The notes beneath the pieces are model-generated. The model was not told where the DNA came from and made no database searches. It saw nothing but the letters and a program-made list of their open reading frames with translations. A stretch of DNA of 64,000 bases from Leptospiraceae bacterium (lineage in GTDB: Bacteria > Spirochaetota > Leptospiria > Leptospirales > Leptonemataceae): the NCBI GenBank assembly GCA_026418015.1, contig JAOACE010000021.1:124001-188000 (forward strand), given 5' to 3'. Position numbers and translations under genes: made by a program. Of this stretch, positions 52,455 to 58,349 are shown piece by piece (within the stretch, counting starts at the first letter, position 1; every line of letters starts with the position of its first letter).

Positions 52455-53702
52455 TTAAAATTTTGCTAAAAACTTTATGTCGATAAAATGTACTTCTTTT
52501 TTGTTGAATTGAATAAATTTTATCTGATAATTATAATTACAATAAAACTGGATTTTTTTAAGTTTGATAAGACTTTCTAACAAAATCCCAAGATAGGTTC
52601 TTTCAATTAAATAATTTTGATTGTAATAGGGATTGATTGCAACATCAAAAAAATCAAAATGCTTTTGTATAAGGTTGATGTTATAGTGTTGATAGAATAA
52701 ACCCAAGTAAAAATTATACTTTTTTTGCATACCTACTTTGAATTTAAAAATCAACGTTTCTTTGTTCCCTTCGATATCAAATGAATAGTTCAAATCATGA
52801 GAAATTAAAAGATTTATATTGTATCGATAATCGTCCTTTATCTCTTTTTGAAGTTTTTTTTCTAAATAATTTACCCCAGCAAGAATAGAAAATTTATCAT
52901 TATTATAGACAATCATATCGGATTGAATTTTTAAAAAAATTATATTACCTTTATAAAAATAATTTAAATTATTATTTATATATTTATTTTTATAATTAAA
53001 GTTTGTATAAAACGAAGAACTTGTATATTTTTCCCTATAGCTATCTGTAAAAAAATCATATTGATCCCAATAATTTTTTCTTACAACAAAAAAACCTATA
53101 TGATGATTATCTGTATTCCAATCAACAATAGAATAACCATAGATATTCTTTTTTTCTCCCGACAAATTAATAAAAGAATATAAATTTTTATACAATAATT
53201 TATTAAATAATATATATTTTTTATTATAAAAATCGTATAAGAATATGCTATTTTGGTTGTAAAGAAAAATACCTTTGCTAAAATCCTCTAAATAAAAAGT
53301 ACCATAAGAAAAAAAATTCTGATAATTCCAAAAAGAAATATAAATCCCTTGCAAGATTCTTTTTTGAAGAAAATCCCCCTCATTAGAAAAATCATTTCTT
53401 AGAAATACTAGTTTATTCCAAAGGGGATTAAGTAAATAATTGCCACCAAATAACTTAAACTTATAGCTTCCCCAAAATATATCAAGATCAATGCTTAAAG
53501 AATGTTCTTTTTTGTCTTTATACATGATTAAATAATCTATGTTATACTGATTTTGATGAAACTCTTGAAGATAGAACAATTCTGGAGAAGAAGGTAATTT
53601 TTCATCGACGAAGTTTTTGTTATAATACGACATAATATAAGATTGACCCATGATGCTCTTAACCCAAATCAATAAACTTAAAGACGTTATTCTTATCTTC
53701 AT
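52455..53702 (-). CDS. Probable outer-membrane beta-barrel-like protein, unknown
   Basis: A 415-residue protein when begun at the ATG at 53702, which gives a signal peptide (MKIRITSLSLLIWVKSIMG). A further upstream ATG at 53783 would place an additional hydrophobic segment before it. The mature part is extremely rich in Tyr, Phe and Asn, with alternating polar/aromatic residues in many 8-12 residue stretches (for example YKFKLFGGNYLL, LKIQSDMIVYNN, FKFKVGMQKKYNFYLGLFYQ) and a terminal aromatic FLAKF, all as in outer-membrane barrels. It is too short for a TonB-dependent receptor and has no plug. It is divergent from the ECF sigma gene over 107 bases. Confidence 0.65.
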   Translation of the reverse strand: MKIRITSLSLLIWVKSIMGQSYIMSYYNKNFVDEKLPSSPELFYLQEFHQNQYNIDYLIMYKDKKEHSLSIDLDIFWGSYKFKLFGGNYLLNPLWNKLVFLRNDFSNEGDFLQKRILQGIYISFWNYQNFFSYGTFYLEDFSKGIFLYNQNSIFLYDFYNKKYILFNKLLYKNLYSFINLSGEKKNIYGYSIVDWNTDNHHIGFFVVRKNYWDQYDFFTDSYREKYTSSSFYTNFNYKNKYINNNLNYFYKGNIIFLKIQSDMIVYNNDKFSILAGVNYLEKKLQKEIKDDYRYNINLLISHDLNYSFDIEGNKETLIFKFKVGMQKKYNFYLGLFYQHYNINLIQKHFDFFDVAINPYYNQNYLIERTYLGILLESLIKLKKIQFYCNYNYQIKFIQFNKKEVHFIDIKFLAKF

Positions 53703-53809
53703 ATAATATAATATCTCTAAAATGAAAATTATTAACAAAAATAAATTAGTAGACAAATAAGTTTTATTTATATTTTCAAACAAATAGATTAAATATTCTA
53801 TAAAAAGAT

Positions 53810-54352
53810 ATGGATTTAAACAATAATACCGAGAAGGATTTTATTAAAGCACTTTATGATGAATATGCTAACGATATATTGATCTTTCTTTATAGAATGA
53901 CCAAAGATTATCAATTGTCTTGTGATTTATTGCAAGATACCTTCTTAAATTTTATCAAAAAAGCATCCGAAAACAAAATAAAAGACAAAAATAAGGCTAA
54001 AACGTATTTATTTCAAACTGCGAAAAATTTATTTATCAATAATTATAGAAAGTTAAAAAAATTTGTTGTAATAAGTTATGATGATGCTATCGATACAAGA
54101 GAAGAGACAACTAATCCAGAAGAAAACTATATTAGCGAAGAAGACGAGAGCTATAATGAGAAAGTCTTAAATGAACTATTGGAATACTTAGATAACTACG
54201 AAAAAACTCTGATTGTTCTAAGATATCAATCGAATTTAAAAATCGAGGAAATTGCAGAAATCATCGATAAAAGCCCATCTTCTGCAACAAGGGCGTTACA
54301 GAAAATTCAAAAAAAATTGTTAAAAATAGCAAAAGAAAAAAAAATAATATGA
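53810..54352 (+). CDS. ECF-type RNA polymerase sigma factor
   Basis: A 180-residue sigma-70 family factor with only regions 2 and 4. Region 2 includes FIKALYDEYANDILIFLYRM and DLLQDTFLNFIKKA (core binding and -10 recognition). Region 4 includes DNYEKTLIVLRYQSNLKIEE and the helix-turn-helix IAEIIDKSPSSATRALQKIQ. The acidic linker between (EETTNPEENYISEEDES) is longer than usual. It is followed by a FecR-domain membrane protein, the usual partner type for ECF factors, so it is probably held inactive by that protein. The -35/-10 it recognises cannot be read here. Confidence 0.88.
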   Translation: MDLNNNTEKDFIKALYDEYANDILIFLYRMTKDYQLSCDLLQDTFLNFIKKASENKIKDKNKAKTYLFQTAKNLFINNYRKLKKFVVISYDDAIDTREETTNPEENYISEEDESYNEKVLNELLEYLDNYEKTLIVLRYQSNLKIEEIAEIIDKSPSSATRALQKIQKKLLKIAKEKKII

Positions 54353-54406
54353 AATATATGCAAAAAATAAAAATTCAAATGTCTTAATTAGTATGAGCTA
54401 TCAAAT

Positions 54407-56886: not shown

Positions 56887-56916
56887 TCATCACTAAAAAA
56901 ATTCTTTGAAAATATT

Positions 56917-57528
56917 ATGGATTGGAAATTTATTATTCTATCTGGTGGCCCGATTGTTTTAATACTTTTCGTTATATTAATATTAGTAATAATCATCATC
57001 ATTGAGCGGATATTATATTATAAAAACTATATAAATTTTATCACAAGTTTCGAAGAGAAATTGAATTCCCAGAAAAACATTTCTACCCAAGAGATATTAG
57101 ATTCTTTTTACAATTCTAAGAAGATTTTATCCATCAACTGGATAACATTTATCAAACAATTGCAAGAACCCGAAAATATAAACAATTTCGAAGAAATATT
57201 CTATCAATTTTACAATAAAGAAATCCTGCATTTAGAAAAGTATTTGATTTTCTTAGCTACAATGGGGAATTTAAGCCCTTTTATTGGTTTATTAGGAACT
57301 GTATTTGGTATCATTCGTTCTTTTATGCATTTAGGCGAAACCAACATGACAGAAATAAACCGAGGTATAGCGGAGGCATTGATTGCTACCGCAATTGGGT
57401 TAATTGTAGCCATTCCCTCCTCCTTTTCGTTTAACTATTTTCGAAAAACGATTGAAAAAATCGAATTACAACTAGAAGTAATCAAAAGTGCATTAAAATT
57501 AAAAATATACTATGAAAAAAAATCATAA
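56917..57528 (+). CDS. exbB: MotA/TolQ/ExbB-family proton channel
   Basis: A 203-residue inner-membrane protein with one N-terminal helix (about 9-30) and two C-terminal helices. LATMGNLSPFIGLLGTVFGI and IAEALIATAIGLIVAIPSSF are the pore-forming helices of ExbB/TolQ proteins. The conserved region between them carries IRSFMHLGETNMTEINRGI. With ExbD it harvests the proton gradient to power outer-membrane events. It overlaps exbD by 17 bases. No TolA, TolB, Pal or TonB gene lies near, so ExbB as opposed to TolQ is the default name only. Confidence 0.9.
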   Translation: MDWKFIILSGGPIVLILFVILILVIIIIIERILYYKNYINFITSFEEKLNSQKNISTQEILDSFYNSKKILSINWITFIKQLQEPENINNFEEIFYQFYNKEILHLEKYLIFLATMGNLSPFIGLLGTVFGIIRSFMHLGETNMTEINRGIAEALIATAIGLIVAIPSSFSFNYFRKTIEKIELQLEVIKSALKLKIYYEKKS

Positions 57529-57913
57529 AAAAAACGATATAATTAGTACAATCAATATTACACCATTTACAGATGTTATTCTTGTATTGTTGATTATCTT
57601 TATGATTTCTGCTCCAAGTATTTATTTAACATCGATTGAAATTCAACTTCCCAGAGGAACAAACAAAAATGCTCAAACCCAATACGAAGAAATTATCGGT
57701 TTAGACAAAGAGGGAAACTATTATTATAAAAATAAATTAACCAAAAAAGAAGATTTAGAAAAAGCCTTTAAGGATAAATCGGTAGAAGAAAAAAAGAAGA
57801 TCAGAATCCTCATTAATGCTGATAAAAACACAAAACATGGAGATGTAATCGAATTAATCAATCTATTTAATCAACTAGAATATAAAAATGTTTATGTGGG
57901 AACATCAAAATAA
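57512..57913 (+). CDS. exbD: ExbD/TolR-family biopolymer transport protein
   Basis: A 133-residue protein with one N-terminal helix (about 20-40) and a periplasmic domain. STINITPFTDVILVLLIIFM includes the proton-carrying Asp in the helix (the TPFTDV motif). The end [20 protein letters not shown] matches the ExbD fold. It overlaps exbB and the next membrane gene, so the three are co-translated. Confidence 0.9.
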   Translation: MKKNHKKNDIISTINITPFTDVILVLLIIFMISAPSIYLTSIEIQLPRGTNKNAQTQYEEIIGLDKEGNYYYKNKLTKKEDLEKAFKDKSVEEKKKIRILINADKNTKHGDVIELINLFNQLEYKNVYVGTSK

Positions 57914-58349
57914 AGTCATCGTATTTTTTTTAATATTTATTCTGATTAATGTGTTTTTTTTTATTTTATTATATTTATTAAAATATGATATATATAAATT
58001 TTATATTATTTATTTAATAATTCCTTTCTTTATCTATGTATTTTTTTACTACCATCCAGAAAAGGAAAGTTTGATCCACATTAACTTATATATATGTTTT
58101 ATCTTCTACTTGCCATTAGCGATTATTTTATTTTATTATCCCTACTCTTTTTTTTTATTTTATAGCACGCTGATGATCTTAATAAAAAAATTTTATTCCA
58201 ACAAAGAAATATTTATATTTAACATTGGGTTTTTACTGGGAATAACTTTACTATTTATATTTAGCGAAACCTTAGATATTTTTCATTTTATCATGAAATT
58301 TTTAGAGATTTTATTGTTTAACATAATATTAGTTTTATATAATAAATAA
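57888..58349 (+). CDS. Polytopic membrane protein in the usual place of TonB, unknown
   Basis: A 153-residue protein with about five hydrophobic helices, extremely rich in Phe, Ile, Leu and Tyr, and no visible family. It starts 26 bases inside exbD (ATG 57888, with a second ATG at 57894). In exb operons this place is often held by tonB, but there is no Pro-rich periplasmic linker or TonB C-terminal domain here. It might be a small accessory subunit of the ExbBD motor. It ends just before the metY promoter region. Confidence 0.6.

Follow-up and report, generated by a model that had tools for sequence, protein, structure and literature searches.

The locus analysed here consists of two modules, a sigma/FecR half and an Exb half, and represents a conserved and fairly unusual variant of FecI/FecR-type regulation beside an ExbBD motor. 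We consider it reasonably probable that a FecI/FecR-type switch lacking a FecA-type transducer controls a barrel protein, with the ExbBD unit as a separable neighbour. Published work on LIC_12756 leaves open by what route a signal reaches the FecR-type regulators of Leptospira-like spirochaetes when there is no FecA-type transducer. The locus offers a conserved candidate chain of barrel, lipoprotein FecR, membrane FecR and sigma factor with a candidate promoter, as well as an ExbBD pair whose third gene is unusual.

Gene content and conservation of the locus

Within the window, i.e. the whole stretch of 64,000 nucleotides that was analysed, the eight reading frames of the initial annotation were confirmed at their coordinates, flanked by pssA (51683-52450) and metY (58355-59710). 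The features are:

52455-53702, minus strand: putative outer-membrane barrel-type protein, 415 residues (open reading frame; all-beta AlphaFold2 model of about 22 strands; Foldseek matches to porins; C-terminal Phe)
53703-53809, no strand: divergent intergenic region between barrel and sigma genes (ECF-like barrel promoter in relatives outside the window genus)
53810-54352, plus strand: ECF sigma factor, 180 residues (Pfam region 2, 43.4 bits, and region 4, 27.4 bits; NCBIfam sigma70-ECF, 75.3 bits, above cut-off)
54407-55462, plus strand: FecR1, inner-membrane FecR protein (N-terminal cytoplasmic domain, one transmembrane segment at about residues 46-73, FecR domain, C-terminal domain as in FecR2)
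55486-56619, plus strand: FecR2, LipL45-like lipoprotein (FecR domain and C-terminal domain as in FecR1; invariant Cys20)
56626-56650, plus strand: intrinsic terminator between two transcription units (present in 18/18 loci examined)
56662-56886, plus strand: Bfd-like [2Fe-2S] protein (Cys16, 18, 47, 51 and 54 invariant in 18 members)
56917-57528, plus strand: ExbB/TolQ-type stator subunit (Thr128 and Thr158 invariant)
57512-57913, plus strand: ExbD/TolR-type stator subunit (transmembrane Asp21 invariant)
57888-58349, plus strand: X, polytopic membrane protein, 153 residues, about six transmembrane segments (occupies the TonB/TolA slot)

The Pfam search yielded two FecR domains (PF04773; 45.0 and 57.1 bits, cut-off 24), ExbB (99.8 bits), ExbD (82.3 bits) and the BFD [2Fe-2S] domain (58.3 bits, cut-off 26), while neither the barrel protein nor X matched a Pfam or NCBIfam family. 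The domain search found no TonB_C or TonB-dependent-receptor domain on the window stretch, ruling out a TonB or TonB receptor hidden in the cluster, and no TonB-dependent receptor on contig C13. Elsewhere, the window genome encodes three TonB-dependent receptors and has three TonB_C matches (two above the cut-off), the latter only on contigs C16, C14 and C27. A complete receptor-ExbB-ExbD-TonB locus lies on C16 (L141; G000:C16:242936-247116), and therefore a conventional TonB system exists apart from the cluster. A further Exb-like locus, on contig C14, combines ExbB with a pair of ExbD-like genes and a gene for a TonB_C-like protein (L142; G000:C14:26534-28738). Within the window, two adjacent, closely similar TRAP-type solute-binding-like proteins (41269-42381 and 42460-43566, minus strand), apparently a tandem duplication, adjoin two membrane proteins.

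We compared the locus among 22 genomes of the uncultured family of the window genome (f1), in which the records that bear a name, KatS3mg129 for example, are metagenome bins of uncultured Leptospirales/Leptospiraceae; locus order was compared in 11 genera. FecR2 is present in 20 of the 22 genomes, the exceptions being G012 (0.9 Mb) and G013 (2.2 Mb). Wherever a contig spans the locus, the order is divergent barrel, sigma, FecR1, FecR2 and Bfd, followed by ExbB-ExbD in 17/22 genomes, and the position is constant between pssA and metYXW. Conservation of the gene set, which the initial annotation named as a check, is thereby borne out across the family, and the conserved order in 11 genera excludes a chance arrangement. 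ExbBD is missing by loss from G001, a member of the window's own genus, the contigs of G020 and G021 end at this point, and in G006 an unrelated gene of 415 codons sits between bfd and exbB. Four other families of the class contain no such cluster; their FecR and ExbD matches are far apart and X was not found there. The housekeeping neighbours tsaD-pssA and metYXW are kept in place as well as the cluster itself. Between the window and G003, identity amounts to 96% for metY versus 60% for sigma, 53% for FecR1 and 48% for the barrel, and thus the sensory part evolves fast.

The division into two halves is marked by a terminator stem, GCGCCAG-ATT-CTGGCGC at 56626-56642, with a T-rich stretch after it. 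Because of this terminator, 56662 is a likelier start for bfd than 56623. An intrinsic terminator separates FecR2 from Bfd in all 18 loci, several of which belong to the same genus, and the stem sequences are unrelated. Each half also occurs alone in one genome: G001 has kept the sigma half with the barrel and lost ExbBD-X, and the reduced genome of G013 carries ExbB-ExbD-X alone, without sigma, FecR or barrel (L139:9110-10758). The suggestion that the Exb half could be separate was thus well founded. Separate occurrence of the genes in relatives, which had been taken to speak against a single module, is found in part, namely for ExbB-ExbD-X in G013 and for the barrel family, which occurs without sigma or FecR in the sister family f2.

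Sigma factor, FecR proteins and the divergent barrel gene

FecR1 exhibits a single hydrophobic segment (residues 46-73), whereas the signal segment of FecR2 ends at the invariant Cys20, in line with the annotated pair of one membrane and one lipoprotein FecR. Besides the FecR domain, both contain a C-terminal domain of the pattern 'DGR.L.G...Q....HT..G', and they cross-match in BLAST; these common domains make them look like paralogues. The other FecR genes of the window genome are scattered. No STN domain, and with it no STN-type transducer, was detected anywhere in this genome, in a search that did detect the positive controls.

The AlphaFold2 model of the barrel protein, built with 14 homologues, reached a mean pLDDT of 63 and a pTM of 0.55, and its best Foldseek matches in the PDB were porins (E 7e-4, low TM-score). 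With moderate confidence, the model supports an outer-membrane barrel-type protein that appears porin-like and without a plug. Every f1 locus that spans this position has a divergent barrel homologue there (that of G002 was missed by the profile and found by BLAST). It accompanies sigma/FecR also in G001, without Exb, and neither of the two f1 genomes lacking sigma/FecR has it. The earlier view that a barrel-type partner stands in place of a TonB receptor is supported. In f2, the barrel family was recognised by profile-profile comparison (probability 98.6%, E 1.4e-15, 346 columns), and no sigma or FecR gene was found beside it. The f2 homologue (L152-L158) usually forms a two-gene unit with an exported protein of about 313 residues that belongs to no known family, and in four loci a gene of the LIC12298 family lies nearby.

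Upstream of the barrel gene, 27-37 bases before its start, we found the motif G[GC]NNC-N16-ACC in 11 loci of seven genera outside the window genus, with a variant ending in ACG in G009. Spacing and shape of this motif are typical of ECF promoters. At such a short distance from the start codon, either the leader is very short or the start has been misplaced. An exact test of 3-mer pairs was not significant (five groups; shuffled maxima of 3-6, with at least 5 in 22/200 shuffles), and a two-block profile was used for this reason. De novo, this profile scored 70.0 for the barrel upstream regions of nine genera versus 57.1 ± 2.0 (maximum 62.4) in 40 dinucleotide shuffles, whereas the sigma upstream regions gave no signal (55.7 versus 56.2 ± 2.0 shuffled). 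For 12 loci, leave-one-genus-out scans placed the barrel site at ranks 1-39 among 14,000-43,000 positions, a control that is not fully independent, as columns and gap were taken from all loci. Matches to the sigma-70 consensus were no more frequent than in shuffles. In the window's own genus the motif is not recognisable because the genus is too AT-rich; in the genus of G008 it appears only as a weak variant, and before the f2 barrel units it is absent. Nor was it found before sigma, bfd or exbB. Hence, of the shared promoter that the initial annotation envisaged before barrel, sigma and Exb genes, only the barrel part holds, outside the window genus. This ECF-like promoter is probably read by the adjacent sigma factor, though another one could use it. 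In three loci of one genus (L058, L061 and L069), the divergent region of 52-55 bases contains a palindrome, CCGGT...ACCGG, which overlaps the proposed barrel promoter and may be the site of a second regulator.

The Bfd, ExbB, ExbD and X genes

ExbB and ExbD gave their best NCBIfam scores with TolQ and TolR (120.8 and 86.4 bits, below the cut-off). Asp21 of ExbD as well as Thr128 and Thr158 of ExbB are the expected proton-path residues, and with these channel residues kept, the pair is predicted to form a complete, proton-driven stator of the ExbBD/TolQR type. The proposal that it powers the sigma/FecR relay or is its output, suggested by adjacency, is unproven. Likewise unproven is an iron role of the cluster, to which Bfd and the Leptospira literature point; the window genome does encode ferritin-family proteins.

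The third gene, X, occurs in two forms. In most genera it is long (388-530 residues), comprising about six transmembrane segments, a long helix and a class III cyclase-like domain, while in the window genus, G008, G010 and G013 it consists of the membrane part only. For the low-confidence model of the long form (pTM 0.36), the top Foldseek match was the membrane adenylyl cyclase Rv1625c (PDB 7yzk; E 3e-5). Invariant columns of the family alignment, which includes the short members, are limited to P75 and G120 of the membrane part. Since this alignment contains no invariant Asp, the cyclase domain of long X is unlikely to be active, and with no Pfam cyclase match either, we judged an active cyclase improbable. 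A TonB/TolA-like role is ruled out by the polytopic topology, and no periplasm-spanning or TonB_C domain was found in X.

Proposed organisation and relation to known systems

In the organisation that we favour, unit A comprises sigma, FecR1, FecR2 and the divergent barrel gene and would act as a switch without a TonB-dependent transducer. The N-terminal cytoplasmic domain of FecR1 would hold the sigma factor, as its architecture and the tested Leptospira pair suggest, and its periplasmic FecR and C-terminal domains may receive a signal from FecR2, the barrel or both. The released sigma factor would then transcribe the barrel gene from the G[GC]NNC-N16-ACC promoter, creating a feedback on a single outer-membrane protein. 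After the terminator, unit B (bfd-exbB-exbD-X) would be a proton-driven stator with a polytopic third gene, and a stable yet separable neighbour of unit A. Against such a switch speaks the missing motif before sigma, as the Leptospira sigma factor LIC_12757 is reported to be autoregulated. The lack of a recognisable motif in the window's own genus and the moderate confidence of the barrel model also weigh against it.

The initial annotation had suggested an envelope-sensing module with the Exb motor as power source or output. In one integrated machine of this kind, ExbBD would draw on the proton gradient to act through the periplasm on FecR2 or the barrel in TonB's role in FecA-FecR signalling, with X as inner-membrane anchor or regulator. 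The adjacency of all eight genes in 17/22 f1 genomes, the invariant proton-channel residues and the lack of another TonB-like gene in the cluster agree with this arrangement, which we nevertheless regard as unlikely: the terminator separates the halves in all loci examined, X has no periplasm-spanning or TonB_C domain, and the loss in G001 and the solitary Exb genes of G013 argue against one mechanism. A more specific version, in which ExbB-ExbD-X is a new type of proton-driven motor whose cyclase-related, six-helix third subunit replaces the TonB/TolA rod and feeds the sigma/FecR1/FecR2/barrel relay, appears very doubtful; if true, it would amount to cell-surface signalling without TonB or a TonB-dependent receptor.

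Conversely, two unrelated units might stand together merely through slow turnover of gene order, as would apply to tsaD-pssA and metYXW. That these housekeeping genes hold their places just as well, together with terminator and separability, lends this some weight, but the adjacency in 17 genomes argues against unrelated halves. Moreover, the barrel is always divergent from sigma in loci spanning it and is preceded by a promoter that matches, bfd-exbB-exbD-X is itself conserved as unit B, and other FecR genes are scattered in the genome, so that we hold this explanation to be rather unlikely. An iron-limitation regulon, with sigma/FecR governing iron uptake or storage and Bfd as iron mobiliser, would account for the intact cysteines of the Bfd domain and the ferritin-family proteins, and iron and nutrient limitation has been proposed as a possible activating signal for LIC_12757 (PMC12155086). 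It seems improbable to us in view of the position of Bfd behind the terminator, the receptor-TonB locus on C16 and the porin-like barrel without a plug; a non-systematic look found no iron-responsive site.

Compared with known systems, the favoured switch has an ECF sigma factor and a single-transmembrane FecR regulator in common with E. coli FecI-FecR-FecA, but differs by the absence of a FecA-type transducer, of any STN domain in the genome and of TonB in the cluster. The stator resembles ExbB-ExbD-TonB and TolQ-TolR-TolA in its complete pair with invariant channel residues, scoring nearer to TolQ/TolR, whereas its third gene is polytopic, often with a degenerate cyclase domain, and TonB/TolA is lacking. 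In its low-confidence model, long X has the layout of Rv1625c/Cya-type cyclases (PDB 7yzk) with about six transmembrane segments, a long helix and a class III cyclase-like fold, yet the family has neither a Pfam cyclase match nor the invariant Asp, and the window X has no cyclase domain. FecR2 aligns with LipL45 (NF033165) over nearly the whole length (176.9 bits, E 6e-52), and 16/16 FecR2 family members match this model, but it stays below the curated cut-off of 350 bits and is fixed beside a sigma factor.

The closest parallel is LIC_12757/LIC_12756 of L. interrogans (ECF229s1), where a 180-residue ECF sigma factor is likewise followed by a FecR protein of about 350 residues (PMC12155086, PMC13118517, PMC12655853). 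LIC_12756 has, like FecR1, an N-terminal cytoplasmic domain, one transmembrane segment and a periplasmic part, and binding and anti-sigma activity via its N-terminal domain have been demonstrated (PMC12155086, PMC13118517). FecR1 matches the LIMLP_03685 anti-sigma equivalog model (NF047528), which may not be LIC_12756, over almost the full length but far below its cut-off (31.6 versus 200 bits); the model matches 13/16 FecR1 family members at E ≤ 0.001. In both systems no transducer receptor with an N-terminal extension is known, and according to the authors no Leptospira receptor has the required extension (PMC12155086, PMC13118517). The ECF229 group is listed in a review as linked to proton-motive-force-dependent transport (PMC12655853), which would fit the Exb neighbour here. 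Beyond this likeness, the present locus adds a lipoprotein FecR, a divergent barrel with a promoter motif and the bfd-exbB-exbD-X genes.
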